Positions 41,216-63,961 of a stretch of 64,000 bases of DNA are shown here, one piece after another. Positions within the stretch are counted from its first letter, which is position 1; every line of letters starts with the position of its first letter. The position numbers and the translations under genes are program-made. The stretch is from Heterotrichella gracilis (lineage: Eukaryota > Sar > Xanthophyceae > Tribonematales > Xanthonemataceae): positions 99,277 through 163,276 of the forward strand of contig JAULBX010032146.1 of the NCBI GenBank assembly GCA_032358255.1, read 5' to 3'. The notes beneath the pieces were generated by a model that was not told where the DNA came from, did no database searches, and saw only the letters and a program-made list of their open reading frames with translations.

Positions 41216-44200
41216 TCACTTGAGGCGCTTGATGAGCTTGCGCTCGCGCCGGTACTCCATCTCCCCCCCGGTGGCCATGTACGCCAGCGCGCGGCGCACC
41301 AGCGTGTCCGACATGCCGATGCGCACCAGCTCGTCCACCAGCTTGCGCTCCGACACCGTGCTGCCGATGGCCACCCGGCGCTTGATGTGCGCCTCCACGC
41401 CCTGGATCTCGTCCTTCTGGGCCTGGTTCAGGACCAGGCCGTCGGTCACCCCAGACTTGGCTGCGTCCAGCGTGGAGATGCGGAACAGCTCGATGGCCTG
41501 CAGGGGGCAGGGGGAATGATAGGTGTGAGCAAAGTAGATACGAGGCGTGGGAGGTGTTTGCCATTTTAAAGTTGCTTAACACATGACACTGCTTGTATAT
41601 GGCGATGATCAGGTGTTGATGATGTCAAACAGGTGGACTTGGATTTTCATGTGGGTCATGGCGCTGCACAACCGCAAAGTTTGCCTTCCATAATTGCCCA
41701 TGTTTAACAGGAAATGCATACAAAATGACAGCGATTCAGGATCGACTGATGGAGACACCACACCGCATACACCTTCCCCATGTCATTACACAGGGTGACA
41801 ATGAAGAGAGCAGCAAATGTGCTGAGGTCATGGCATGAGGTGCCAAGGATCAGCACAGCGCCCTGTCATGGCGGCTCTCACCTTGGTGACATGTGCCTCC
41901 GTGGCCTCTGTCTTAAGCTGCATCTTGGCCAGTGACTCTGAGATGCGAATGATGGCCTCAAGCTGGCGCACCGTGATGGGCACGGCAGGCATCTCCCCAT
42001 CAGCGTTGTCCCGCCGGGTCTGGTGGAGCAATGAACGCATGGATCAGTAATTGTGTATCACACTTGTGGACTGTTGTGTGCAACCAAAGCATACGCATGG
42101 TGCTGATAGTGTCATCACCACATCCCTGAAGCAGCAACAGCACCACGACCACATTTGAGTACTGAAAAGGTCAATGCTTCAAGATAAGTCAACGCACCCC
42201 CCACACACCACCCAGTTCCTCCTGTTACACTCACCATTTCCCTGATGTGCACATATTCCGCTGCCAGTAGGCTGGCGGCCTGCTCTGACAGCCTGGGAGC
42301 GCAGTTTGCCTTGCAGTACTCGATGTACCTCTTCAGGAACCGCTCCCCCTCTGCCTCCTCCTCAGAGTTGTCATTGCCAGCTGTCGCCTCGCGATGGATG
42401 CGCAGCACGTGCCTGGGCAGGGGATGCACATGCACACTCAGCACCAAGCACCATTGGATTATGAACGGATGCTAACGCAAAGCAGGCGCAGTGTAGCAAA
42501 CTTGAGAAGGGCTCTGCCAAACTGGACCAGAGGAGTGCCAATAGGAGAATGTTGACCCTTGGCCGACATCACGTAGGAGCACTACTGTAATGTACATTAT
42601 CATCCCTTAAGTCCAGACCCAAAAAACCCTTGCAAGGGATCTTGAAGCACCCACCTGGCAATTTGCTTGTCCCTCTCCTCTGTGCGCTCATCCTTCACAA
42701 TGAAGATGAGGTCAAATCGCGACAGGATGGTGCTCTGCAGGTCGATGTTGTCTTGCGCGGTCTTCAGGTCGTCATACCGGCCCGAGGGCGGGTTGGCAGC
42801 CGCCAGGACCGACGTGCGTGACTTGAGCATGGTGGTGATGCCTGCCTTGGCGATGGAGATGGTCTGCTGCTCCATGGCCTGTGGGGGTGGGTTGGAAGGA
42901 GGGTTTTGCTAGGGTTTGGGCTAGGGTTTGCCTAGGGTTGAGAGGCTCTAGGTATGGAGTTGGTCTGCTGTTCCATGGTCTGTAGGGAGAGTTGGGTGCC
43001 ATGGGCCTTGGATGGAATGCAGGACAACATATTTGCCAGAGCCTTTGTGAAAGGCGCGGAATTCATGAAATTTACGCGAATATTTTAGTTCCTGTCATGC
43101 ATGCATATCACCACCAAGCAAGGAGCATGCACTGCTGTCCTTGTAGCCCTGCAACCTGTCACCCTACACCCTGAGCACGTGTGTTGCCTCACCTCGTGGA
43201 TTGCCACCCTGTCCTCCGGCCGCATCTTGTCAAACTCATCGATGCACACCACGCCGTTGTCCGCTAGCACCATGGCGCCTCCCTGAGATGGCACACACGG
43301 GGCTCAGGTGGGGGGTGAGCATCACTGATTGCACACTAATTCACCAAGCACGGGCACAAAGTTGGCATGCTGCTGTCTAGGACGATTGTTGGACATGAAC
43401 CCGCATTCAACCCCTGATAGACTATTCTCAACCCCAGACCCACCTCAGCAGGGCATGCCCCATTGCCATGTGAACCATTGCTGCACCAATGCCAGCCTGA
43501 TGCAGCATGGTGAATCCGCAGCATCGTGCATCCAACACTACAGACTGCCCTGTCTTTGCTTCCCCCTACCTCCAGGTAGAACTCCCCACTCTGGCTGTCC
43601 CTGATGACAGACGCAGTCAGACCCGCGGCACTGGAGCCCTTGCCCGAGGTGTACACCGCGATGGGCGCAGTCTTGGAGGTGAACTTGAGGAATTGCGACT
43701 TGGCGGTGGAGGGGTCACCCAGCAGCAGCACGTTGATGTCGCCCCTGCGGTAGGTGCCGTCCGGCATGCGCTGCACGGAACGGAGTGGTCGATTAACAGG
43801 ATGTGGGGAGCGAGGTAGAGGTAGAGGTCATTGGTTAGTTGTTGAGCACATATAGTAAGCATTGTGACGATCATGTGGGCTGATGATCTATCCATGTGGT
43901 CCACGCCTATCCAATCAATGTAATGCATGCAGCAATTTAATTAATAAGGCTCAAGCATGTTCAATGGTTACCAAACAGGACTCCACTGCATGCCATTGCA
44001 CATATGGCACCAGAGGATAATGACTAATTCCCTTGGCCCCAAATGGTACAGCATGCCTACCTTGCGCGATCCGCCAAACAGCAGGCACCCCACCGCCTTC
44101 TTGATGTTGTCATGGCCCAGGATGTTTGGCGCCATGCGTGCCGTGATGGCATCGTGGATGTTGGGATCGGATGAGTACTCCTTAAACTGCTGGACCTCCT

Positions 44201-46423
44201 CGGCACTGCAGCCGTATATAAGGGCTTTAGGGTTTCACCATGTGGCTGAGTAGGGTTTAGGGTTCGACTGTGTGAGACATGTACCACTATGTTTCTTGCA
44301 TGCTGGGCCACTGCAAGTGGTGCTACGACAGTGCAGGTGACATTGTTGCATGGGGACATTGAGAGAGGCTGCATGGATCAGCTACCCAGCGATGCTAGGT
44401 GGGGCACAGCTAGGGTAGGCTAGGCTGCAGCTCTCTAGGCACATGCATACAATAATGCTGGGCTTGTCAAGTGCTTTTAGCCATACCTGAACAGTGGTCT
44501 GCGGCTGGCAAACTCATCGATGTCATCATCCAGCCCCACAACCCTTAGGTAGGGTTGGCGCACTGCCACGCCCGCCTGCTCACCGCGCTTGGACTTCATG
44601 CCTTGCTGCACAGTTACAATGGTGCACCTGTCAGCATGGCTGCGGCTGGTATGTGCATGCAGGAATGGTGCTGCCTTGGTGTGTTGGAACTAGGAAATGC
44701 CACAAGGCACACAGCTGTGTGCCACTGCACGCTATGTCAGGGGTAGTATGTAATATTGGAACACGCCTCAGCCCAAGAGGAGTGCGCAAGGTGCTTGCAG
44801 TGCCGGTGCATGCACGCCCTCACCTCAAACACCGAGTAGATGGCCACCACGTTGACTCGAGTGCCTGGCGCAATCTTGCCTGCCAGGTGGCGGTCCACCA
44901 CCAGCAGGATGCTGCGGGGCAGGTCACCAGTGGGCACATCCTCAGGCCGCTCCTGTGGGGTGCACACAAGGCGTGGTTGGTTGCCTCTGGCAGTCAAAAG
45001 CTCTCAGGGATGTGCATGTCAATGTGGTGCTATCAGCCGGTGGCAGGCAGGGCGTGTGATGGCTTTTGACCCATGGAGGTCGAAGTATTTAGGGTTTAGG
45101 GTTTGATGTGTAGGCCAGGTACTTGGGGCTGGGATGCATATGCTGGGGTGCAGGTGAGTGCTGCACTTGGTGCGTTGTGCGTGCTGCCCACCTGCATCTT
45201 CAGGGTCTGTTGATCGATGAACGAGCTCTTTTCGGGCACCACCACCCATGGGTCCAGAGGGCAGTCGGTGCCGGTCATGGCGCCACCATCGCAGTTGCGT
45301 GGGAGCATGGTGCCACCCAGGCCTGGGTTGACATCAAACCGCTTGACGTTCTTGCACTCCCGGCACACACAGGTGATGTGTGTGGCTTTGTTCTGTGGGA
45401 GGAGGGGGAGGGGCATATCAGGGAGAGTGACCCACCAATGGGGCTATAGCAAGCAAATGCCTTGAGAGGGAGGGGAGCCGTGCTTGTGGGTGGCTGAGAA
45501 CCTGGTGCTTCGTACCTTTGGCTTGGAAGCTGCTGTCACAATGCCTGGAATCATCACCAGCTGGGAGACTTGGTCAGACTGCAGCAAGGGGCACAACCAT
45601 GAGCTCCATGAGAGTGTTCTGCAGCCAGGACCATCATAAAGCACATTGCATGCTGCAAAGCTAGATTGGTAGTTTAGTGACCTACCGTCAGCTGGCGCAT
45701 GGAGTAGGGTTCGAAGCCGTCGGAGCTGTCAAGGGTGATTTGGAAGTTGTTCCAGTCTGGCTCCTCCTCCCCTTCCTCCTTCAAGAACTCCAGCTTCTGA
45801 AGCTGCTGAACCGCTGCCAGCTCAAACTACGCACAGCAGTGGAACTATTTCAGCAGCAGGATTGAGACTGAGAAGCAGCAGGCTGTGCCCAGGACACGTT
45901 GTCACGCAGGTTATGAGTGAGCTAGTGCCACTGCCCATGAACCCATCTCGTGGAGCGTACCAGAGGCAGGTGCTCTGTCGGGTTGGCTTTGAGCTGAGTG
46001 CACAGCACGTGGTCGAAGTCATCAAAGTCCAGCAGGTCCACGCGCAGGAAGCCCTTGTCGCGCTTGAGTTGATCCCTTGCATATGACAAGATTCCCCATC
46101 AGGTCGATGCCAGCAGCAGGGCAGCTCAATACAACAGCCAGCAGGATCGGGAAAGCGCAAGGCGCATGCATCAGGGTACCAACCTGTATTTGGAGACCTC
46201 GCTCCTCTTGTTCTGCTTGTCTCTGCCAAAGTATTTCCGGATGAACTGCTCGTACTTGCGGATGACCTGAGCCCTGGATGCCTCAGGCGCCTCGAGGGCC
46301 AGATGGTGGTCCTCAAAGTATATTGCTCCCTCTGCACGACCAAATGAACTTCAGTACACGTTACAAACGCGGCTAGTGCTGTGGAAAACCCAAGGCAGCG
46401 TACGCACCATCGAACCCAGCCAT
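41216..46423 (-). CDS. MCM5: DNA replication licensing factor MCM5, 729 aa
   Basis: Subunit of the hexameric MCM2-7 replicative helicase in the nucleus. Fifteen exons on the minus strand join in frame: 46423-46408 (16 nt), 46331-46184, 46075-45961, 45826-45686, 45578-45516, 45392-45192, 44952-44824, 44605-44487, 44205-44061, 43770-43570, 43282-43193, 42878-42655, 42412-42235, 42019-41882, 41497-41216. The start [13 protein letters not shown] matches plant MCM5 starts, which fixes the tiny first exon. Zinc-finger Cys are C169, C171, C174, C195 and C205. Walker A is GDPSTAKS (377-384), Walker [10 protein letters not shown] (DE 441-442), the arginine finger SRFD (509-512). The C-terminal winged helix ends in KLIKRLK. 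Length and all motifs equal those of functional MCM5. It is head-to-head with the giant gene, start codons 719 bp apart. Confidence 0.97.
42904..45105 (+). repeat. Scattered TTTAGGG-like fragments in MCM5 introns
   Basis: Three introns carry short runs: 42904-42937 (three AGGGTTTG-type units), 44224-44266 (TTTAGGGTTT twice) and 45087-45104 (TTTAGGGTTTAGGGTTT). They are interstitial telomere-type repeats, each only two or three units. Confidence 0.65.
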
Positions 46424-47142
46424 CTTTGCAGGGGTGTGTTGTTGTCCCTGCACGCCCCAAACTCTGGCCTTGTTGTCTGCAACCACACGCGATATGCAAC
46501 GCAACCAGAAAGTACAACCAGGACCGGAAGAGCAGGAAAGCGTTGCTTATGTCGTGCTTGTTTTGTGGCAGCCTTTGTATGTAAGCGGCAACTTGCTGAG
46601 CCTTCTTTCCAAGTTTGAATTTGAAATTTCTAGCAGGGATGTTTTTTGGAACCGGGAAACACATCCGCATTGCCATACCCTTTTCCGGCCGACATAGAAC
46701 CCTCATCCGACACCGAGCACTCCGAAGAACAGCAAGGCGACATGCATGCAACTTAAGTGTTGTCTTCTCGTGGGATACACGGCTCGGCAGCGAACCGCAA
46801 CGTCCATGCCTGCGGCAAATCCCTCCGTATTGTTGCCACTGACGACTAGCTTGTGTTCCGTCTCGCATGCATATACCTGCCCACCTGCAAAGACCCTCCC
46901 ATGCTTTTGAAAACACTTCTCACTGTCCGTGGTTCCTGCCCATTGAGCAGTGCTGTTCCAAAACGTTTTAATTGGTGGTAACGCAGTTTGGGTATCGCAC
47001 CTTGGATATCGCATTTTGGGTGTCCACTTCGTATCTTCTTAGGTCTTGGACTTGTGGGCAGGCCATCTATGAGACAGTGTCAAGCACAGAAGCTTCAAAA
47101 GGCTGGTCTGTACAGCAGCGCCTGCCACGAGCTTTGGGCACA
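46424..47142. promoter_or_regulatory. Bidirectional promoter region between MCM5 and the giant gene
   Basis: 719 bp between two opposite start codons; it must hold both promoters and 5' UTRs. No TATA box is obvious. An E2F-like TTTCCGGCCG occurs near 46680, but this was not tested against background frequency. The shared spacing is the only regulatory evidence. Confidence 0.4.
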
Positions 47143-50100
47143 ATGCCGCTAGACTTGTACATCGTGATTGATTTGGCGTGTGCACGCTTGCAAGCCCCAC
47201 CAGCTTCACCATCATCACATCGGCCGAACCCACAACCTCTTGATGTCGCTGAACAGCTTCTCCAGCTCCTCGCGCGAACCTTGGTCATCCAGCAGCTTAT
47301 GTCCCAAGGAGAGGGTGCAGCGTGGAGACAGAGGCTCTTTGACAGCCGGTACCAAAACGCAAAGGATGTAGAAAAGGCCTGCAAAGCATCCATGAGGTCC
47401 AACAAATCTGCGAAAGGTAGGGGGTTGCGTTGTGTTTTCTGTATTCCAGCTCGCAAGAAACTCTGATTGGGTTCCATTACCGGCTGCGCGCTCCGGTTTC
47501 ACCAGCTGGTGGGGACCAATGGCGCATCTTGTTTCCTAGTCTGAACTAAGCCAGTGTTCAGATGGGCAAGGCAGGCCACCCAACGCATGTTCTACGCAGG
47601 GTTGCAAGGCGCAGAGCTTGAAGAAAAGAAACAAGCAGTGGCGGCGGTGGTTGAACAGCTGGTAGAGGCTTTGCAACCATTGAAGGAAGTGCAGACTGGC
47701 AGCAGCTTTCAGGACCTGACCCGCCTGTGGACAACCCTCCAAGTGCTAGGTAAGGACTCTTCTGTCTCCCAGCAACGCTTGAACACGTCTGTGGTTCCTA
47801 CTTTTGACCGGTGGCTGCTCAACGTACCTCCCAGGCCGGTATATCGATAGCAAAAGCGGTGCCCACCTGGGCACCCAACTGTGGAAGTCCTGTGCTGACG
47901 CCTTGAAGGTGTTGGTGCCTGTCCACCACGAGCTGGGCACAGAAGCTGACCCGTTGGGCGACGACAGCACCACTGGTGCGCATATGAGCAACTGCTTGAC
48001 CAGCACACCTGCGTTCCTTGCTGTGGGCACTCTGGCTTCTTTGGTTGCTGAAAACACGCTGTGCTCAGGGTCTGCACCACTGGCCCAGAAGCTGCTGATC
48101 TGCTTTCTGGCTTTTCCTGAAACTCAGGAGAAGGTCGACACCCTGCTAAAAGGTATGTTGTGTCTTTGCTGTACTGCAAGCTTGGTGTATCTTGCAATGA
48201 CGCCGTTGTGGGACCTAAGTGGCAACTAGCCAACACAGAACATATTATTGTGGTGGTTCTTAACCACTATGTTGCGTGCAGGACCAGAAAAAGCTGGAAT
48301 GCGTTCACCTCTTGAGGATCTGCACAACCGACAGCAACAGAGTGGGGCACACATAGTGCTAGTTGATGTGGGTAAGTGGAACAGCCAACAGTGGAGGGAG
48401 CCATCTAGCACCTGCCTTGCCCTCCCACTTTATACAAAGCTTGGCTGATTCTCCTGTGCGCTTTGCAGGCCCTCGTGGTGGCTCAGGTGAAGCCAGGTCC
48501 AGTTTCATGAAACAGGGATGCAGGTAAAACGCTTTTGCGCACAACCGCAATGTCACTCCCCCATGGTACACCTCTGACAGTGCACGGTGCACCCTGTAGG
48601 GCGTTGTGCCCAGGCATGACAGTACTCAGGATGGAGGAGCTTCAGCAGCTGGGTCCAAAAGGCCTGGCAGAGGCATACAATTTGTTGCCTTTGCCTGCAG
48701 AAGCACCAGATTTCGGTTGGCCAAGCCTTGGCGCTGGCGTTGAAGCCATGTTGAGACACCTGGAGAAGAAAAGGGCATCGATTCATCCACAGGGTATGTT
48801 GCGTCTTCAAATAACTGCTTTCCATTGCTGCGCTGTGGACTTGGTTCCTTGGAAAGGCCACAAACATATGCCAATTGTTTTGTGAAGTATGCGTGCCTTT
48901 GCAGATTGGGGGACTGCAGTCGGGCAGCCAGCATCACCGGAAGATGCAGCACCGGGAACAGATCCACTGGATTTGCTGGATCTTGGCAAGGAAAACCAGA
49001 ATGCAAACAAGGCAATTGTCCAGAAGGTGAACATGCATACACCGCTTACTGGAATGCAGATACAATTGCGTGCTTTGAATGTGAGCCAGGCATCATGCAT
49101 TTCTTTTCTAGATTCAAGTCTTATGCATCTAATAAAAAGATGCACATTGTGCAATGCAGGGGGCGCTGGCTATGACGGCAAAGCCTGCGCTGCAGCGGAT
49201 TCTGGCTAAGGCGCCGAAACCAGATTTGAGAGCACAATTGCAAGCCATGAAACCACCGGTGAGTTCCTGCAGCATAGTATGCACTAGCTACATAAGCAGT
49301 AAACCCAATGCCTAAATTAACAGATGAACAATGTACTGAGTAACAACCATGCTGACTGGGACCTCAGTATAGGACCTGAAGTGGATTTGGCCGTGCCAGA
49401 TGGCAGGGCAATTGCACCCCTCTCAGATATTGTGCCACTCTTAGGTTCATGGTAGCATGGGGTCCTGGTCCACAGTGGTATGCATGCAGGAGCCCTTGCT
49501 GGCAGAAGGTTGTATGTAGCTTGCACTTGGCAGCAGGGTGCAAGGGGCAGGGATGCACAGGATGTGGTCAATACCGATGGATGCACCTCGCCTAGGATCT
49601 TGTGCAACTGCAAATAATGCCAAACAGTGAGCATGTTTTAACTGAAAACTTAGGCGGTGTGGCTGACAATTGTCTGGTTATGATTGTCTGGTTGATGATT
49701 GTCTGGTTGATGATTGTCTGGTGATGATTGTCTGATTATGATGCAGCCCGTGCAATCCAAGCCAGATCGGGAGAGCCCGTCCTGTTCACAGGCAGTGCAT
49801 CAAGCCAGCCCAGCCGCACAGCGAATCAGCGCAGCGGTGCCGCTGACTCTTGAACAAGCCTTTGACAAAGCTGTAGGGTACGCATACAGCACCAAACATG
49901 TGGCATTGCAGGCTATTCCCCAATCGCTGACCTGTTGTCCCTCTAGAGCTGCTGGAATGGTTTTTCTTAAGAGACTGCACAAAGGCAAAGCATGCCGCGT
50001 CTTGTTAAGTGCTGGTATGCGTTCTTGCAGGCTGAAGAAGGACGCTCTGGCAGCTGGCAAGAGCACAAGCGAACTGCGCAAGAGTGCGCAGGACATTGTC

Positions 50101-53100
50101 AAGCAGACGATGGAAGTGGTGACCAGGTATTGCAATAACACACCCATGCGCTTGACACACGTTTTGGCTGGTGCTCCTCTGTGTCACGTCACTGTATTTA
50201 CCTGCCGTTGCTTGTCTATCAGATATCATTTGTTGCTGGAAAAAAATAAATTTACTGTTGTTTAAATATATTATGTCTTTCATATACTTCTACTATTAAA
50301 AACAGATAACAATTCATGACAAACTTTGATTTTATCTTTCACGATTGGCAATTCACGGCACCTGTTATTGTGATGGTGCAGGCACCTTCCTTCACGCAGT
50401 GAGTCACTCGGCAGTATTGACCCCCATCGGAAGAAACCCTTGACAGGAATTCTGGACGTCCCCAAGCCCATCTCAGACATGAAGCTGCAGCTCCTGGTAC
50501 CTGAAGCTGTTGCAAAGGAATGGGGCTTGTATGATGACAGCAAAGAGGAGCGGAGCAAGCTTGTGAAGCCACAGGCAGCCTTTGAAGTCTTCCTGATGCT
50601 GGAAATTGGGCTCCAAACGGAAGGTATGCTGCCAGAGTTAATTACGTGCTTGTGAATTGAAGCAAACTTTAAGGCACCATCTGGCAGCTGTACCATTGAT
50701 GGATGACAACATTGTAAGGGACGTGTATGTAGTCTCCAGCCTGGCTCTGTGAAATGTGAAATGCTGTTGTGGTTTGCAGCCATATACTACCTGTGCATTT
50801 GTGCAGGCTTGTATGAGAGGAAAACTGCATTCACCGAGGGTGAGATCGATGTGCTGGAGTATCTGTATGACACCTTTTTTGCGCTTGACAATGGTTCCCA
50901 GAAGATGACAGACTTCCACAAAGAGTACATCCAGCAAACCTATGGTGAGTCGTACTGTCAGGATTACTTGCCTACCTTATTGTCTTTATTTGTGTGGCAT
51001 TTTGCATTACAACGTTGGTGTGGACTGTTGGTGATTGTTGCATGTCAAGCTACTGCATACCTGCTTACTTGCTTATGTCTTCCTTGTTATGTATATCTAT
51101 TTTTAATTATATATTTTTGAGAAAAAAATTGTCCGAAATCAACCCCCACAACCAACGTGGGGGCCCGATTCGTTGAGGATATCATATCAAATATTTGGGA
51201 GTTGGGCTCTTTGGCTACATCTTGTTGGTAACAACAAGGAATTGAAGCGCTGCCCATCCATACTTTCACCACATACCTGCGTTGTACTCCATGCAGGGGA
51301 TCTCAGGAAGGCAATGAAGATGCTGAGCGACAAGCTGGGGCTGACTGAGGACATCCTCCATGTTCAGATACAGAACACTCGCGACCAGGGAGACAGAACT
51401 AGCCAGGGAGGCAGGACCAGCCAGGGAGGCAGGACTAGCCAGGGAGGCTCTCAAGCTAGTGACGGCGATCTCAGAAACAAGGAGGTTTCCCAGAAGCCTC
51501 CAAAACCTCCTTTGAATCTGAGGTAGGATCTTGCTGAAAGGAGTGCACGGGCGATCCATGCATGCATCTGAATTTGCACAGATATCAGCGGCCGGAAGTA
51601 CTGCAGGTTAGCTACACACACTCCATGTATGGGCATGGTCTTTGCTTCAAACTCAAATGTTTATTCTGTTCTGCCTTGTTGTTGTACAGGGCACGCTTGG
51701 ATCGCAAGCTGGAGACACACCCGACCTATGCGGGCAATGCCAAAGCCCGCAAGCATCAGGCCAGCAAGCCTCCTGCATCCAAGGCACACCATGTGCCAGA
51801 CAGCAACAGCAAGAGCGGAGACTCTTACAAGCAGGATGCTGAGGAAGGCACCACCTCCAAAAGCCATATCCTGCCTGGCTTTAGGTGCGCCTGCATGTCT
51901 ATATATACCGCTGTCTGCAGTCCATGCATCCCCGCCAAATAGCGAGTCTAGCTGTGAATCCTTTACAAAACGGGGCCAGGCAGATCTGTCTGGACACCGC
52001 ATGTACCAATTCTGGATCTTTGCCTCGCGTGAAGGTTCTATATTTGCCTTCATGTCTGACATGTGATTCCACTCCTGGGCAAAGCTTATGCTGTTGCCAC
52101 ACATGCAAGGACATGTTATTGGCAATACTTGCCAATTAGTACAGCAGTACCACCATGGCTTGTATTGCGTGGTTTTCTGCTGTCTCCTGAAGTGGTGTTT
52201 TGCTGCTGGTGCAGACCTGATCTTCCCCGGTATGCTGTATCACATCAACTCAAGTCCAAGTCCCAGAAGCAGAAAGGTGTGACCATGCTTCATTTGTCTC
52301 CGCCATCACAATGTGTTTGACAATGTGCGTAGATGATGCCTGCACTTGTGCACTGCATTGCCATGCCAATTGCAAGCTGTTCTCATGACTTGAATAATTG
52401 TGAATGAAGCGGCGGAGTGCCTTTGCAGATGCAAGCACAAGCAAGACGAGGCGCATGTTGCTGCCAGCAACCCCTGGGTGAGTCATGCCGGCCATCGGTA
52501 GCACATATAGCATGTTGGTTATCGATCATGTCAACTGGAACTTGCTGCAAACTTTGGGTGCAAATTGATCTGTAAATGTAACCTTACCGATATATGTACT
52601 TGCAGGCTTGCCTACCCTGAGGATGACATGGTGCCAGACACAGTGCTGAAACCAACACTGCCCTCCTGCGACCTCCCACGCATGGGACCAGACCCCTTCT
52701 CGGCAGCTCTGGTTGGCGGAGGTATGACTGCTCAGCTTTGCATCAGCACTGCCAGTCAATTTGTTGTTTTATTGACCAGCCCAAGCTTGGCTTCCATGTG
52801 TTTTGACTTGGTAGCATCTTCTCTGCCGTGCTGTTGAGTGTGCTGAGGCCTGACAAGCAGCTGTGCATTATGCAGACCGGTCATTGCTTGGAGCAATCAG
52901 AAATGGCGTGAGGCAACGGGCAGCAGAACCACCAAGGTGGGTTGTCAGGCACAATGTGTAGGATCATGCAACTGGATTCGGCCAGCGCTGCAATTAGTGA
53001 CGCATTGCACTGCCATGTACCTCGTTGATGTGGGTGTTCACCTGCACGCTGGCCATGGTTTTTGCAATCAATCAACAACATTAGCGGCTTCTGAAAGGCA

Positions 53101-56100
53101 GGTGCATGGCGGGTGGCCAATGTTGATGGATGCCTCCAAGGGATGCATGTAAATCTAAATGGAACTGTAACAAACAAACAGATGGGGATTCCCAGCTGTC
53201 ATCTGTAATTGGAATTTTGGAAAACTACCTGCTTACTGCTGGTACATGCTACATGCAGGCCCGCAGCAGGCAACCATGCAGCGTTGGAGCTCCACACAGC
53301 TCCAGGGCTACTGGACTTATACCAGTGTGACGTGGACTTCCGCCGCCATGACCTGTCTGTCTTTGACCGCCCCTTTGACACCCAAGTGAGCGCTTTCCCG
53401 CCACTGCATGCTCCCAGCCAGGGCCAATCCCAAATGGCAGCTCTCATGCCCACCATGGTCCAGCCACAGGGCGCCACCTCAGTGGGTGCTGCGTTCGAGG
53501 AGGTTGTGGAGGCCAGTGACGACTCTGGGGCAGCAGGGTGTGTGTGCAGTGGCGGGGACGATGATGCAGCGCTTGGGGATGATGGGGCAACCCCTGGGAC
53601 CCTAGCACCTGAGCCCGCCACCCACCCTACCATAAGCCCCACAGCAGGCTGTGAGCCGCCAGTTGCAGCAGCAGCGGAAGCTCCCATGCTCCCTGGTGCA
53701 GACCTGCATGCCCAGCCCACGCCACCTGCATGGGTGGGCGGCAGCGCCGCCGGCGCTGGATTGCCCACACGCTGCTCAGGCAGGATATCTGCTGGTGGGG
53801 TACCTGCTGCGCCTCCTGCTGCCGCTCCTGAGCACTCAGTCCCTGCCGTGGTTGGCAGTCTTGCCACTGGCAAGCGGGGCAGGAAGTCGATGCAGCCCGT
53901 GGACCAAGTGCCCAAAGGTGTGTGGCTGAGTGGTGTGCATGCGCTGGATAAATACATACATGGGTAGTACACAGTGGCGGCAGGCAGTTTGGTGAATCAT
54001 CACTGTACATCATTTGCTCTACACTATACCATATGTGAGCGCTGTAGCAACACCAGTTGTTGCGTATCCTAATTTGATTGTCACATCTGCAGATAATGAC
54101 GAGGAGCAGGTTGAGGCTACCCCCCCACCCATTGCAGCACCAGCCGTCCCCACGCCATCCGTTCCTGCAGCTGTGGATGCACCACTGCTCAGCGGTGCAG
54201 TTCCACAAGCTCAACCGCCACCAAGGGCAACTGCCAGGCGTGCCAGCGGACCTCCAGTCTCCGCACCGCCTGCCACCCGCTTGCGGCGCTCCAGTGCGCT
54301 TGCTGCTGTGCCTGCTGCACTGCCTCCTGCTGGCCAGTCTCCTGCTGACCAGTCTTCTGCTGACCAGACACCTGCAGCAGATGGGCCTGCCACTGGCCAG
54401 AGGACAGTGCGGTCCACCCGCTTGAAGCAGAAGATTGCAGCTGATGAAGGTACTGTCTATCGTACGCGGTAATGGTGCATGGACTTAAATACCAAAAAGT
54501 GAATAAAGATAACAAATAATCATAAAAAATATACAAGAGCAAAAATGATATGTAGCCTCCAATCACAACGTTCATCTGCAAACATCACCTCTGCAAACAT
54601 AAGCAATGTTCGTCACAACCCCCCATTCCTGCGATGTACGTATGTCAGCAGCTAACAATAAATCTTGTTGCAGTTCCTCAATTGGCAGCAAGTGCTGCTG
54701 TCAGGCATGCCGGCGTAACCCCAAGCCCTGCGCCGCCTACCACCCGCTCGGGCCGCATTCGTGGGCATGCTGCTGCGCCTGCTGACAACTCTCCTGCTGA
54801 CAGCCCTCCAGCCGAACATTCCCCTACGGACCAGTCACCGGCAGCACCGGACGCTGCCACTGGCCAGAGGGCAGGGCGGTTCACACGCTCGCAGAGGAAA
54901 AGTGCAGCTGATCAAGGTAATGCCCTTCCTGCATGGCAGTGTGCAGAGCATATGGGTGGCGCAAGCTTGTGCTTGGCTAATTGTAATCTGGCTTTTGTGC
55001 CGGAATGCTTGTAGTATATAGTGTAGCGAAGCATACTCCTGGATCACTTACATTCACCCAAACCCCTGCGCCTTGTCGCATTTTCTTCGTGTAGTGAAGA
55101 AAAACATAGTGCCTTTCCCCTGCCTGACATCATGTGTAATATGATGATTGTGCAATGCACAAGCAGCAGCGCATGCTGCCAAAATCCTGCCGACTTGAGC
55201 ACTCGTTCCTGCAGGAGTGAATGTGGGAACCGCTGGTCAAGCCGCGGCTCGCGCTCCTGGTCAGCAGGCAGCTGCAGGTGTACTGAGTGCAGCTGCTGGT
55301 GCAAACCAGGCGGCTGCCACTCCCCAAGGACCGCTCGTGGAGGATGCAGAGCAGGTGGAGGATGCAATTATCATGGGTACACCACCAACACCTGAGGGGG
55401 CAACCCTGGTGAAGGGCAACTCTGCCGGCAGCAGTGGGAAGCGGACGAGCTATGATGCTGCCGCACTGCTGTCAGCTGGGACGCATGGCCGGCGTGCAAA
55501 GCAGGCCGATGCTGCGCCACCACCACGCAATGAGGTGAGCCCATTGCTATGCATGCAGTGTAGCTGCATGCTGTTTACATCAGGTCATCCCCCTGGGGCA
55601 GTGCAGCAATGCTTGGCAAAAAATTTGCATCTTACCCAAATTGCGTGACGCAGATGTGGCTGAATGTGTAGGTACATGCACACATTCGCATCTTGTCCAC
55701 ATCCAAGCAACTCATGGTTCCTTAAACATGTGCCCAGGCTGAGCCAAGGCAGGAGCAGGCACCATTGCCACTGGCCGGTGCCGATGTGCAGGCCCAGCCA
55801 ACACCAGCCACAACTGGGGACATGGGCATCTCTACCCGCAGTGGGAAGCAGGCGAGCGGTGACGCTGCCAGACTGCCATCCCCTGCCAAACGTGGCCGGC
55901 ATGCAAAGCCGGGCAATGCTGCGCCGTCGCCAGTGCCCGATGCTGATCTGCAAACCCAGGCAACACCACCCACAGCTCCGGGTATCTCTACCCGCAGTGG
56001 GAAGGGGGCGAGCGGTGATGCTGACGCTCAGCCTTCAGCTGGGACGCGCGGCCGAGGTGCACAGCAGGGCGATGCTGCACCACCACCAGGCAGTGAGGTC

Positions 56101-59100
56101 CCACCATCGCCAGTGGCTGATCTGCATGCTCATCCACCACCAGCCACAGCTGCACCCCACGGCAGGAGAGGCACCAGCAGCGCACAGCCTGCCAAGCGCA
56201 GCCTCAGGCAGCACGCAGCAACACCTGCTGATGCAGTCCCTGCTGCTGATCCTGGCGGGGCTGATCCTTCCGCAAGGGTTCCAGACCAGGCAGGCACTGA
56301 GATGGCTGGTGGGGCTGCCGGTGGGAAGGCGAGAAAGCAGCAGAAGCGGTTGCAAGGTACTGGTCTGTACAGGAAGCGCACGGCACTTATCTTGAAATGC
56401 GCTACTGCGCTGTCAAGATGCATATTTTGAGCATGCCTTGATTGACTGCAAAACTGCACTCTGCCACTGAGCAGTGCAAATTAATGATGTGAGTGCTGTG
56501 AGTGGGTTGATACACGCTGCATGGTGCTGACACTGCAATTCTGATTGGGCCATGCGCACCGCATGGCACTGATGATTGTGCATATGTGCATCCAGGAACT
56601 AACGCGGCGGAACAGGCGCCAGCACCTGCACCCAGCGCATCTATCCGTCCACCGGTGAAGCAACGCCGCTTGGGTTGCTCCAAATGCCGAAAGCGCCGTA
56701 CAGGCTGTGCTAAATGCCGAGGCGAACAACCCGCAGCCATCAAACCCTCCACCAAGCCCAAAGCTGGTCGTGGACCACCGGTCGCAGCAAGAGCGCCCCC
56801 TCCCATGCTCCCTGGTGCAGGACTGGACACTCAGTCCACACCTTCTGCAGAGATGGGCAGCGGCAGCGCCGGCGCTGGTCGGGTGAAGCGCCACTCGTGC
56901 CACAGTGCGGCCCCTGCTGGTGGGGTCACTGAGGGGGGCCCTGCTGCCACTCCTGAGCAGCCAGCACCTGCAGTTGTTGTTGAGGTTGCCACTGGCAAGC
57001 CATCCAGGCAGTCAAAGCGATTACAAGGTGGGGACCAGTTTCAGAGAGGGTGTTGCCCTGCCTGAAGAACACACATAGGCCTCGTGGTGGCGATTGATTG
57101 TGTGCATCATCCTGGTGCACATTGAGTAACAGTCACAGCAGTGTGACTGCATATTGCATCGTGGGCCCATACAAGGAAGGATTGCAGCAGTTGCGCTTGC
57201 GCTTCTTGGTTGGAAACCATGCTGAATTGCAGCAGTTGCAATTGTCTTCCTGGTTAGATACCACGAAAGCATGCATTGCAACAGGTCATGTAGCAGTTCC
57301 TCATAATGTATGATGCCTGCAGGAGCGGATGCGGAGCAGCACGCAGCTACCCCTACCCCCCGGTCAACACCAGCTGTTCCTGCAGCAGTGGATGCATCTC
57401 CAACCAGGGATGCAGACCAACATGCGCAAGCATTGCCGGGGGATGCAGCCAACAGAATCCCAAGGCCTTCCCCGCCTGCCACCCGCCACTCGCGCCGCTT
57501 GAGTGAGCTTCCTCCTGTGCCTGCTGGCGAGGCATTCGCACCATCATCAGTTCGTGCCACTGGCCAGAAGAGAAAGGCGGCCATGACAGGTACAACTTGG
57601 TCATATAAATTGTTTTTGGCAATGACAGGCATAGCTGGCAAAGGTAGAGACCTCATTTCATGGTGTGGACTGCGTGCCGCACATACCTTTGCCAGCGCAT
57701 GCATCGTTGTGCATACCTATAGCCTTGAGGGCACCATACAGTAATGTGCTGGGTGCCTGGATTTTGAGTAGCGGGTGGCGATCATCACAATAACAATGCT
57801 ATTATGATGCGTTACGATGGGACTGCCATGCACAAACAGCTGTTTGTGGGATGCTGACTCGAGGTGCCCTGCCAGCAGATGGTGATGTGGAGCATGCACT
57901 GGGCAGTCCCACACCTCATACAGCCCTTCCAGACTCTGCGGCTGCTGAACTCCAGTCAGGTGCAGAGCTGGACAGGCCTGCTGTTGGCTCTGCGCGAAGG
58001 AAGTCAGCCCGGCTCTCGCCAACCAATGGTGCGGTTGGATGCCAACTGTGGCAACAGCATGGCAGCGCAGTGGTGTCCTTGTATTTTATCATCTACTACA
58101 GTTTAATTATGTATTCTGGAAAACTTGGGCTGTTGACATCGCTGCTCCTGTAACTCTCTCCCCGCTTACCGCTACTGTTCATGTGGAAGCTAAATTGTCA
58201 CATATACCTGCCAGTGGATGATGCACCAGGCTTACAGCTTGCGGTTTACAGTCCATGCCACCTCAAAGCACCACAGTTGGCTTACCATCATCCCCCTGTG
58301 CAGCTGCACAAGACCTCCAGCCATCGTCTCCACCACAGCCGCAGCCCTGCTCCCCGTCAGATGCAGCCACACCAGCCACTGCAGCAGCCAGCCTGCTCAG
58401 CTCAGAGGGGGTGAAGCACCCCTCGTCTCAGCCTCTCCACACCCCTCCGGCTGTGCAGGCTTCCAATGCAGAAGCAGGCCAGGGGAGCGGCTTCAATGGG
58501 GGCATCGGCAGTAAGGTCAAGAGGAGGAGGCAGGGCCAGGGTGCCGCACAGCCGCCGCTGAGCAGCATTGGCGAGCACAGCAAACCAAAGAAGTCCCGCA
58601 GCAGCAAGGCGGCAGGGGATGCCAGCGCAGCTCCCCAGGCGCCTGAGTCGCAAACCATTGGTGTGGCAGCAGGGCAGGGCACCTCTGAGGGGTGTGATCC
58701 TGGGGCAACATCCCCAGCCACCGTCGCCAGCGGGAAGGCAGGCAGGAAGGTGACGTCCCCTGCTGTGGTCCCCCGCAGGTCCAATCGCATGTCTGGCGAG
58801 CAGTCTGGGGTGTCAGCATGCAGGTAAGACCGAGATTGGGGGCATCCAGGACTTACCTTGATTGTATTGCATGCTGGGCGATTTCTGAGGCTCAGTTGGA
58901 AAGAGTTTTGAGTTACCATTGGCACGCTCTGCCGCACATTGACCTCTGCCTGCTGTTTGTTGATTTGTAATGAATGATGCGCAGCACACAGCTTGGTAGG
59001 CCCTGCTTGAAGTTGCTGCGCAGAATCGAGTCTGTATTGCAATAATGTATGAAGAACTTGTGTACTGCCATGCAGGGAAAGCGGCAGGCCTGGGTCCGGG

Positions 59101-60474
59101 GTTCAAGCCAAGAAACTGAGGAGTGGCAAGGAAGTTCAGGTTCCTGAGGTGCCGTCACAGGAGCCCATGATGGTACAGATTGCGCCAGAAGAGGCGACTG
59201 TGGAGCATGCGCCAGAGGATGGTGCTGTGGAGCAGCATGGACAAGAAGTTCTGGAGGTACTGATTTGGCTGCAGTGTGCACAAACTGAGCTGCAACATGG
59301 GTGTCTCTTGATGCACAACTGCAGTAGTTGCATCCATAGTGGGGATGAGACTCGAGCCCATTTTCACCCATTTATTATCTATGTATCTAGAGCACACTCA
59401 ACATCCTCCCAAAAAATGTAATTACATATGTTTAAAAGTTTATGACTTCTTCGATTTTCCTGCAGTGTCACATTTTTCTGAAAGATGTTTATTGTTGTCA
59501 TATTTCAAATTCAAAGTAACCAGGCTGGGTACAGCATTTGCATCCTCCATTTCCTCTATCCTGTTCCACACGATCCTCCTTCTGCACTTTTGCAATGCCC
59601 CTCAGTCGCCATGCCACATGACAGCAACACAGCACTCTGCTGAAGCTGCATTGAAGTATCAAGCGCCAAATAACCATAGTTTCCCGCGTGTTTCCCCTCA
59701 CCCCTGCCCCGCCATTGCCCACAGGCGCCTCAAGGTGATGCAGATCCACAGCCTGCGGGACATGGCAGCGCCACCCCTGATGTCACAGTTACTGTAGGCA
59801 CCAGGGGCACACCGGCACAGCCCAATGTCACACCCACAGGCCCAAGTGGAGCGGATTCTGGTGCTGCCATCAGGCTGCCATTTGCGATGTCTCCCACCGT
59901 ATCCCTTCGTTCCCGGGAAGGGGCCCATAGCAGCCCAGCGCCCATTGCAGCGCCCACCATTAACGCGCACTCATCCTCACCGAGTGCGCGGCGCTTTTTC
60001 AATGCCGTGACAAAACCGTTCCGTGCCGTTGTGGGATGGGCAGTCACCTCATTGTCGCCATCACCCGCACGGCCGCAGCTGGAGAGCGCAGGTGCTTCAC
60101 TCCTGCAACAGCAGGCAGCGCCATCCCTGTCAACTGGAGGCAACACCCACAAGAGCCTGAATCTGGATCCAGCTGGTGGCAGCCTGCCGGTGGCATCCTC
60201 TCCTGTGCAAGCGGCCACACCTGTGCCAGCTGCAGAGGCCAAGTCAGACGACAGAGCGCCCAGCCCTGGCGGGTCAGGAGGCGCAGGCACGGAATCCAGC
60301 TCTGGTGTGGACCATGCACATGTGGCGGGTCCAGGGGGCAGCCCTAGCAGTGCGCGGGCGACCACCAGGGGCAAGGGGGTTGTCAAGCGGAAGGGCGCCA
60401 AGCGCACGCCATCGCGCACCTCCGGGAGGCTAGTAAAGCGCAGGGTCAGCCAGCCCAACAGGCGGTATTCTTAG
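47143..60474 (+). CDS. Giant repeat-exon protein of unknown function, about 2,393 aa
   Basis: Twenty-nine exons join with no frame error: 47143-47416, 47600-47749, 47835-48152, 48282-48371, 48469-48523, 48600-48793, 48905-49026, 49160-49258, 49747-49877, 50031-50126, 50382-50623, 50807-50944, 51297-51522, 51690-51884, 52215-52276, 52429-52477, 52606-52721, 52876-52936, 53259-53917, 54093-54449, 54674-54916, 55215-55534, 55738-56356, 56596-57027, 57323-57589, 57879-58028, 58238-58823, 59076-59256, 59725-60474 (TAG). Residues 1-870 look folded and helical in places (EIDVLEYLYDTFFALDNG, LRKAMKMLSDKLGL). This middle part faintly recalls the Treslin/Sld3 domain, which is a guess. Residues 870-2393 are Pro/Ala/Ser-rich and disordered, with repeated segments ending in basic patches (ATGKRGRKS, ATGQRAGRFTRSQRKS, VKRKGAKR). 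Exon 24 has C-x2-C-x6-C-x2-C. Likely nuclear and DNA- or chromatin-associated by composition. No upstream in-frame ATG exists in exon 1. Confidence 0.75.
49668..49740 (+). repeat. Minisatellite, about five 14-15-bp units, abutting a splice acceptor
   Basis: Units of the form ATTGTCTGGTTGATG repeat five times with small length changes. The array ends at the acceptor of exon 9 of the giant gene (49746) and supplies its pyrimidine-poor branch region. Confidence 0.85.
51395..51448 (+). repeat. Three in-frame 18-bp repeats encoding RTSQGG
   Basis: Three tandem 18-bp units at 51395, 51413 and 51431 in exon 13 of the giant gene encode RTSQGG three times. They differ at one synonymous Thr base (ACT/ACC) and at the first Arg codon (AGA/AGG). 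Confidence 0.9.
53259..58028 (+). repeat. Tandemly duplicated exon family within the giant gene
   Basis: Exons 20, 21, 24, 25 and 26, and the pair 22+23, are phase 1 at both ends, so they can be duplicated or skipped without frameshift. Exon 19 (53683 on) and exon 24 (56802 on) share APMLPGADLHAQPTP- and PPMLPGAGLDTQSTP-type segments, then GSAAGAG/GSAGAG and ATGK plus basic residues. Exons 20 and 25 share VPAAVDA; exons 20, 21 and 25 share ATGQ[RK]. Exon 23 has an internal duplication (GISTRSGKQASGDA and GISTRSGKGASGDA). Confidence 0.8.
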
Positions 60475-61307: not shown

Positions 61308-63961
61308 ATGCTGACATCCAGCCTTCAGCGCCCTCCCCGGTCGCTGGGAAGGCCAGATCATTGCAGCACTCGACCCAGGGTGGTAGCGGTTCGTGCGGGC
61401 TTGGGGGACGACATTCGTGACTTCTTTGACTTCAATAAGTGGGCGCCCAGGAGCTCCAGGACGTGGAGGCTGAGGCAGGGGCCTGGGGAAAGAGAGCTGA
61501 AAGCTTCAGGTAAGTGGGTGGCCCTCCATGTAAAAATATCTACTGAGAGGTCCATCTTGGCTGGGTACAGACCACTGTGCCGTGGTTTGGCCTCCACGCT
61601 TGCCAGGGCACCAGATGCAACGTTTCTTTTAAGGCAATTGTGCAGTCTGCACTGGTCGTTGGACTGCTGCAGTCACCAGAACATGCATGCAAAGTGATTG
61701 GGGGCGGTGGAGTAAGCACCAACACTCATTTGTGGTGTGGTGCTCTAGAGGTTCAAAACAGACTGTGGGTTACTGGTGGTTCTCTAGCGCACACACCTTG
61801 TTTGCAAGGTGTTTCGGGTCTGTTTACTCTACTGGCAAAAACCGTATTTAAAATGCAATGGCAGCCTGTTCAGCAACCAACCTTCCAAGGTGGCGCCACC
61901 CCACCTGCCCAGTTGGTTGTAGCAACAAAGCTGTAGTGCATATGCGCAACCCCGTCTAACACTGTGTATTGCACCACAAGCAGCCTAACACCTCAGCCTT
62001 GTGTGGTTTGCAACATGTCGGGCTATGAACACGCCGTCACAAACACGCCCTCTCTGTCTCCAGAGGCTGCTGCGGCGCAACCTGCTGAGGAGAAGTCCTT
62101 CGATGTGCTCAACCAGCGCATCAGCCAGCTGCGCAGCGAGTCCAGGGAGGAGCCATCCAACCTGGAAACCCTACCGGAACCCTCCACCAGCAGCGCTGAC
62201 TCAGCAGATGCCCCGGGGCCCTTCTCCTCCATGTCAGAGGAGCAGTTCAGCGCCAGCCTGAACCAGCGCATCTCCAGCCTGGCGTCCAGTTCAGACGGCG
62301 ATGAGCCTCCTGCTGCTGAAGAGCCTCTGCCAGCTGGCAGCATGACAGGTGTGGGGGGTTGTGCACGTAGACAGTCATTGGGTGTTGGCTGCATGTACCT
62401 GTGCACAGGCGTCGCACATGGATAGTTCTCGCAGTGGGCAAACAGGAATCTAGCGACTGTCATGCGGGAGCATAATGGATTGAGGTGGTATTGACTATTA
62501 AAAGGCAAATTCTGACATAGTAGCCATTTGATGAAAATGAAATTGATTTTGTTTTGGAAATCTTGCATAAATGCTGAGGCTTTGCTTCCGTCCATGTGCA
62601 CGGCTTCAGGTTTATCAGTCAAAACGCATTCCTGCCACACGATTAACAGGCGGTCTTGCATCCACCAAACCAGCCAAGTCGGTTCTGACACTGCCCCTTT
62701 GTTCCCATCCAGGTGCGCAGCTGCGTGAGATGGTGTACAACAAGTACGGCAAGACCTACGACCTGTCCATTGTGCGCCGCGACATCCCTGGGAAAACTAT
62801 CGTGTGCCTCAATGTCATGTGGTGCCACCTGGAGCAGAAGTCATTCCCCATGACCGAGGAGGAGTACCTTGATAAGATGGACACCATCGCATTCTACATG
62901 AGGTGAGGGGAGGGGTTGCATACCCGGGAGAAGGTTTGCACAATTCATTTGGCGGCGCTATGTGTGCAAATCAGTATCTAGCAGGCACGCGTGGGGTGTT
63001 GGGGATTGAAAACTTTATTGCATGTAGGACATAGCCCCATGCATCGGCTGCAACAGCATGCGAGTACCTTGACAAGATGCACACTATTGCCGTCTACATG
63101 AGGCAAGGAAGGGATTTGCAAACCATGGAGAAGGTTTGCGCAAATCGTTCGGGGTGGCCCATGACGGCGCTCTGCATGCCAAGTCAGTGTCAAGATGGCA
63201 CGTGTTGGAAATGTGGGGTGTTGGGGATTGAAGAGCAGGAATGCACATGGCATGGCACTATAAGCAGCCCTCTGGTTGGTCTCCTTTCCTACAATTTTTA
63301 GTGTGCAGTTTGGGTGTTGGGAGGTTTTGAGGTTGCTAAAAAATGGGGGGTTGTTTTTAGAGTTTTACTGGAGGGTTTTATACTGTTTTTCTGGGGATCA
63401 TTTACTGGGGGGGTTTTTTACTGTTTTACCGGGGATCATTTTCTTTTCTTGCGAACCGTTTTTTTGCATGTGAGCGCGCATTGCTCTGCACCTCCGCTGC
63501 AGGTATGCTGCCCCTGTCCCAGCGTGTAGTCCATTGTTTTCTGAGCCGCGACGGGTACTTTATTATTCTATTCTATTATATGGCACGATATTGCATTTAG
63601 GACATAGCCCCATGCGTCTGCTGCAGTAGCACCCTTTGCATGCCGAGGATATGGCCATAGCTCTTCCTCTACTTCCAATCCGCCATGCACTGGGCACTGC
63701 TTGCCACGTATGTACTGCATCAACGTTCACCATAGCTCCCCCATCATTGCACAGCCATGGTGCCACCACATCCTGCTCATTTGCCTCACCACCACTCATT
63801 TGCCGCCCAGGTCGTGGGGCCAGGAAGACACTGTGCGGCAGTTCTTTGACACCCCTCCGAGGCCAACGCGCGGTATGCCCTCCCGGCCGGTGGTGGGCAT
63901 CGCCATCAGCATTCGCCTGGACCTGCCCCGAGCAGTTATTCAGGAGTGGTTTGGGGCCTAG
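61308..63961 (+). CDS. Plastid-targeted DUF3067 protein, 275 aa
   Basis: Four exons, 61308-61509, 62064-62348, 62713-62902 and 63811-63961, join in frame and end in TAG. Exon 1 starts with an Arg/Ser/Pro-rich transit-peptide-like sequence (MLTSSLQRPPRSLGRP). Exon 2 is acidic and low-complexity, with a repeated NQRIS motif (DVLNQRISQL and ASLNQRISSL). Exons 3 and 4 encode the DUF3067 domain: LREMVYNKYGKTYDLSIVRR, GKTIVCLNVMWCHLEQKSFP, EEYLDKMDTIAFY, WGQEDTVRQFF and a final DLPRAVIQEWF. The family is confined to cyanobacteria and plastid-bearing eukaryotes and has no assigned biochemical activity. Here it has gained an N-terminal extension relative to the short cyanobacterial form. Intron 3 holds a partial copy of exon 3 (63062-63232). 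Confidence 0.88.
62862..63232 (+). repeat. Imperfect duplication of an exon-3 end plus intron sequence
   Basis: 62862-63010 and 63062-63232 align along their length, with gaps. Shared blocks include GAGTACCTTGA[TC]AAGATG, CTACATGAGG, GAGAAGGTTTGC and GGGGTGTTGGGGATTGAA. The second copy could encode EYLDKMHTIAVYMR, but its splice donor is GC rather than GT. Confidence 0.8.
63018..63631 (+). repeat. Dispersed 42-bp repeat and a 38-bp tandem repeat in DUF3067 intron 3
   Basis: Copies at 63018-63058 and about 63590-63631 share GGACATAGCCCCATGC followed by CTGC-rich sequence. Between them, 63365-63440 contains two tandem copies of a T/G-rich 38-bp unit starting TTACTGG and ending GGGGATCATT. Confidence 0.65.

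Follow-up and report, generated by a model that had tools for sequence, protein, structure and literature searches.

The 64,000-nucleotide stretch of DNA analysed here (the window, from contig JAULBX010032146.1 of the alga Heterotrichella gracilis) carries a large plus-strand gene of 29 exons at 47143..60474, head-to-head with the replication gene MCM5. Judging from its sequence, we lean slightly towards regarding the predicted product of 2,393 amino acids (aa) as a Treslin/TICRR/Sld3-like origin-firing factor, a candidate short of family membership, with a long basic C-terminal tail that appears to have grown partly through exon duplication. Treslin and Sld3 act in Cdc45 loading and origin firing. 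If the assignment is true, the gene offers an algal candidate for a core replication-initiation factor that ranks among the least conserved, together with a clean example of a hypervariable disordered tether evolving by countable exon duplications.

The rebuilt gene model consisted of one reading frame with a coding sequence of 7,182 nt and no internal stop. All exon phases were compatible and the splice sites were GT-AG in 28/28 introns, which bears out the 29 exons with consistent phases reported in the preliminary description of this DNA. Position 47143 is the earliest in-frame ATG; upstream of it the frame stays open with no further ATG. Exons 1-6 (47143..48793; residues 1-360) occupy the place expected for the vWA-like CIT domain of animals and plants, where vWA similarity was not demonstrated, and exons 7-9 (48905..49877; residues 361-477) form a linker in which no Ku-like M domain was detected. 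The candidate Sld3-Treslin domain (STD) is encoded by exons 10-13 (50031..51522; residues 478-711), with core similarity at about residues 561-665 by pairwise comparison. Exons 14-18 (51690..52936; residues 712-872) follow with a basic linker, in which one T-P, at residue 812, stands where the TopBP1/Dpb11-binding segment would be expected.

We compared the N-terminal half with human Treslin and yeast Sld3. The human sequence used matched the Pfam models Treslin_N, Treslin_M and Treslin_STD over full length, and the yeast sequence matched PDB SLD3 chains. End-gap-free global alignment of residues 561-665 to the human Treslin STD core gave z values of 4.1 and 4.0 (3 and 5 of 2,000 shuffles), single-sequence hhalign aligned 74 columns with this core (equalled by 1/150 shuffles), and the local score of 48 against the human STD was equalled by 21 and 37 of 2,000 shuffles, all p-values for this segment being optimistic since it was selected after the motif had been noticed. 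In similar tests, the accepted human-yeast Treslin/Sld3 pair scored worse (62/500 in local alignment; 8/150 with hhalign). The candidate thus resembles Treslin/TICRR of animals and plants and Sld3 of fungi in its STD core, which is like that of human Treslin, and in the T-P that follows it. The C-terminal region of animal Treslin is likewise long and for the most part unstructured, according to PMC8807876; PMC3520825 and PMC6377148 were consulted as well.

The second line of evidence is the genomic neighbourhood. The MCM5 gene lies on the minus strand at 41216..46423, an extent given without a full exon model, with its start codon at 46423-46421. Pfam recognised MCM_N, MCM_OB, the MCM P-loop domain and the MCM5 C-terminal domain in it, and its top PDB matches were MCM5 (1.2e-33). 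The two genes diverge from a common intergenic region of 719 bp (46424..47142), which holds one TTTSSCGC-type E2F-like octamer and one weaker one, at 46652 (CCGGGAAA) and 46812 (GCGGCAAA). These sites were not significant, with one TTTSSCGC seen against about 0.1 expected (nine per 64 kb, both strands). The relation to MCM5 is one of adjacency on the opposite strand, with no homology claimed, and argues only indirectly for a function in Cdc45 loading and origin firing. Taken with the STD-core resemblance, it suggests that the earlier statement that no described family has this architecture is probably wrong for residues 1-870.

Several results weigh against the assignment. When the human STD core was slid along the whole protein, the best window was that at 571 (score 38) and another at 466 scored nearly as high (35), and widening the STD reduced z to just 2.6 (42 and 47 of 2,000 shuffles). 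Against the N-terminal 1,047 residues of the human protein taken as a whole, the best local score was ordinary (433/1,000 shuffles; reversed sequence 63 versus 48). Segment by segment, the human CIT/vWA region (280/1,000 shuffles, z about 0), the end of CIT (64/1,000, not significant) and the Ku70-like beta-barrel of the M domain (503/1,000, with methods that are weak here) gave no support, and the segment after the STD scored below its shuffles (997/1,000). Yeast Sld3 showed no similarity (107/500 local; 31/150 hhalign). Two CDK (S/T-P) sites after the STD were not found, T812-P standing alone between residues 642 and 983. The Pfam Treslin models, Treslin_N and Treslin_M included, found no match in residues 1-919; because PF21855 also fails to match yeast Sld3, this silence carries little weight. 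Genome searches with the Treslin_STD and Treslin_N models returned no match, but no control genome matched either, and a genome search with the human STD yielded no hit up to E 10. The candidate differs from Treslin/Sld3 in that neither a vWA nor an M domain could be demonstrated, the second CDK site is missing, similarity to yeast Sld3 is undetectable and the tail consists partly of duplicated exons. Because the two CDK sites were not found and three other defining features were inconclusive, we treat it as a candidate rather than a member.

Wider searches added no relative. The MTBP_C model found nothing in the genome and matched no control. The non-Treslin Pfam matches were at chance level (syntaxin 6 N-terminal domain, 0.12 and 0.094; Sina_RING, 0.28), as were the single NCBIfam match and the PDB sequence matches to the STD region. 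A degenerate-pattern scan for relatives in non-eukaryotic collections gave 6 matches in viral_contigs and 61 in genome_contigs, of which 0 were confirmed, and among the literature titles retrieved none concerned an algal Treslin with an exon-duplicated tail.

These findings could also describe a lineage-specific chromatin or replication protein outside Treslin/Sld3, in which the STD resemblance is a chance likeness of helical segments, with no change to the tail or to the MCM5 adjacency. The absence of a Pfam Treslin match, the vWA domain, M domain and second CDK site that were not shown, the rival window at 35 versus 38 and the choice of the STD region after the motif was seen all speak for such a protein, whereas the 74-column similarity, above that of the accepted human-yeast pair, and the divergent arrangement with MCM5 speak against it. 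We regard it as a real possibility, though not a probable one.

The tail of the candidate origin-firing factor was examined for paralogous exons by comparing the 55 pairs among exons 19-29 with 300 protein shuffles and 100 codon shuffles. At the protein level, the pairs 19/24, 20/21, 22/23, 20/25 and 19/20 scored above 300/300 shuffles, with 19/24 reaching 206 against a shuffle mean of 54. At the DNA level, 19/24, 20/21, 22/23, 21/25 and 20/25 exceeded 100/100 codon shuffles with Gumbel p < 1e-8; the pair 26/28 also exceeded 100/100, but with a Gumbel p of 0.002. The similarity thus exceeds composition in a shuffled-control comparison, and the paralogy first proposed, of exon 19 with 24 and of exons 20, 21 and 25 with one another, holds, the pair 21/25 by DNA only. 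Where the exons align, their DNA identity was 0.69-0.81 (19/24, 0.69; 20/21, 0.74; 22/23, 0.81 over about 120 bases), and synonymous divergence (dS) was 0.31 for 20/21, 0.49 for 19/24, 0.61 for 20/25 and 0.83 for 22/23.

Exon by exon, unit A is exon 19 (53259..53917), whose paralogue A' is the phase 1-1 exon 24 (56596..57027). Unit B is exon 20 (54093..54449), and B' and B'' are exons 21 (54674..54916) and 25 (57323..57589), all three of phase 1-1. The 3' part of exon 22 (55215..55534) carries a sub-exon repeat common to exon 23 (55738..56356), which has internal repeats, including two STRSGK copies, resembling the end of exon 22. This is a repeat inside exons with one copy split by an intron and not a whole-exon copy. 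Intron 22 (55535-55737) splits that copy, and the copies in exon 23 are intronless, which points to a possible gain or loss of an intron. Exon 26 (57879..58028) is short, of phase 1-1, and ends in the basic patch RRKSARL; exons 27-29 (58238..60474) contain the remaining disordered basic tail and the stop codon.

Introns flanking the paired exons showed no clear similarity (eight pairs, p 0.04 to 0.89, 40 shuffles each), and the best p among all 378 intron pairs, 0.001, is about the chance expectation (40 shuffles each). Any intron similarity has therefore been lost, and the exon copies are probably old. In a search of the 68.5-Mb genome (E 0.001), exons 20 and 24, the sole queries, matched within this gene only; the search was of low sensitivity, exon 20 missing exon 25. 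Of the 4 matches of a pattern that was picked after inspection, 3 fell at exon starts, which is a hint only. Within exons 19-29, phase 1-1 exons number 5/11 (20, 21, 24, 25 and 26), to which 22 and 23 add one if taken as a pair; the preliminary description overstated the case in calling most 3' exons symmetrical. Symmetry was not clearly enriched (5/10 internal tail exons versus 7/17 among exons 2-18), which leaves the proposed length variation by exon skipping unsupported. The exon comparisons support growth of the tail partly through exon duplication for exons 19, 20, 21, 24 and 25; to this extent the earlier idea of a disordered tail expanding by exon duplication stands, and its DNA-binding role is plausible.

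In composition, the tail (residues 873-2393) has an isoelectric point of 9.6 and contains 18.5% Ala, 13% Pro and 10% Ser. It holds 52 S/T-P motifs compared to 32.7 in shuffles (0/2,000 shuffles as high), 11 [RKH]Sx[RK] motifs compared to 1.8, and 5 ATG[KQ] motifs compared to 0.2, one in each of exons 19, 20, 21, 24 and 25, an excess that is partly inherited through the duplication itself. Lysine and arginine were concentrated at exon ends, making up 40/200 of the final 20 residues of exons 19-28 (circular-shift mean 19.8; 0/1,471 shifts as high). The ATGK/ATGQ endings and basic patches first noticed in the related exons were thus confirmed as a motif excess and as basic 3' exon ends. The full CDK consensus [ST]Px[KR] was not enriched (4 versus 3.2; 770/2,000 shuffles).

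Exon 24 further contains LGCSKCRKRRTGCAKCR, a Cys module (GCSKCR-x4-GCAKC, 56673-56717) that is possibly a zinc knuckle. A 29-residue query against the same genome, up to E 10, found three places: exon 24, a copy in C7 (LGCSKCRHSRSGCAKCR, E 7.8e-5) and a copy in C42 (LGCSKCRYSRNGCAQCR, E 0.0067). The other two copies lie at about 7374-7442 in L010 and about 6908-6976 in L011, both on the minus strand, and the module common to all three places reads LGCSKCR-x4-GCA[KQ]CR. In C42 the open frame of the module continues into an MBD4-like glycosylase domain, which, once its exons had been joined by eye, matched MBD4 structures in PDB over 117 residues (E 7.5e-29). The C7 gene has weak BRCT-like segments (Pfam RTT107_BRCT_5, 0.0028, below its cut-off; PDB Mdb1, 0.0018). 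All three module-bearing genes look DNA-acting, a modest argument for a role in DNA transactions. The module itself gave chance matches only in Pfam and PDB, and eight viral matches to its pattern were chance-like once translated.

These features can be brought together as follows. The folded N-terminal part would assist in bringing Cdc45 to loaded MCM2-7, and the 1,500-residue Pro/Ala-rich basic tail would have been built up partly by exon duplication. Along the tail the units run A B B' C C' A' B'', an arrangement that would have arisen by block copying of A B to A' B'' and by copying of B to B'. With one basic patch per unit, the tail would tether the protein to chromatin in a phosphorylation-tunable way; a tether is its most likely function by composition and by analogy with a disordered region of Orc1. 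According to PMC11077064, the disordered region of Orc1 recruits the fly origin recognition complex to chromosomes and its orthologues are unrecognisable by sequence. As proposed for the tail, this hypervariable metazoan region evolves fast, is phosphorylation-regulated and brings a replication initiator to chromatin (PMC11077064; related, PMC6764820). Unlike the tail, it belongs to another protein and another replication step, and the abstracts of these two papers do not mention exon duplication. The full proposal is that an algal origin-firing factor gained a modular tether of exon-wise basic, S/T-P-rich units, one with a Cys module (GCSKCR-x4-GCxxCR) common to MBD4-like and BRCT-type genes, and that exon number, through evolution or splicing, could set tether strength. 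We put this forward tentatively, as rather unlikely to hold in every part.

The tail may instead be near-neutral low-complexity sequence produced by slippage and duplication and devoid of a specific function, a reading that fits whichever identity the N-terminal part has. The ratio of nonsynonymous to synonymous divergence (dN/dS) between copies was 0.57-1.19 (20/21, 1.19; 19/24, 0.79; 20/25, 0.57; 22/23, 0.76), so the tail repeats seem weakly constrained, a point that also counts against a functional tether. The lack of enrichment of the full CDK consensus and the short tandem repeats within exons 13, 20, 21 and 28 point the same way. Against this stand about 1,500 codons kept open with coding signal, the S/T-P, basic and ATG[KQ] motifs above shuffles (even if partly inherited by duplication) and the location of basic patches at exon ends. 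We consider a functionless tail unlikely.

Coding potential was assessed by codon log-odds, with the tested exon and exons 14-18 left out of training and 500 same-length intron windows per exon, each taken in its best of three frames, as control. A clear coding score in the assigned frame was obtained for 26/29 exons, and 25/29 were equalled by no more than 2/500 intron windows (exon 15 by 3/500), in a test biased towards exons because background and control came from one set of introns. Exons 4, 5 and 12 were weakly coding (equalled by 26, 24 and 20 of 500 windows); exon 12 had a codon score below 0, and exon 5 scored no higher than another frame. A false joining of two adjacent genes, a replication-factor-like one ending near exon 18 and a disordered protein beginning at exon 19, would explain the strong shift in composition towards the tail, but is improbable, since exons 14-18 are coding in the linking frame (equalled by 0, 3, 1, 0 and 2 of 500 intron windows) and all phases fit without a stop. 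A single gene comprising exons 1-29, as predicted from the letters alone, is the better reading.

Further repeats were seen within the gene. An 18-base tandem repeat in exon 13 (51385-51448) encodes TSQGGR copies directly after the STD-like core, and intron 8 holds a 14/29-base tandem repeat, ATTGTCTGGTTGATG, at 49669-49742. Downstream, at about 61308-63961 on the plus strand (an extent given without a full exon model), lies a gene for a DUF3067 protein (Pfam E 1.9e-27), which we take to be a cyanobacterial and plastid family and which would fit a photosynthetic eukaryote.

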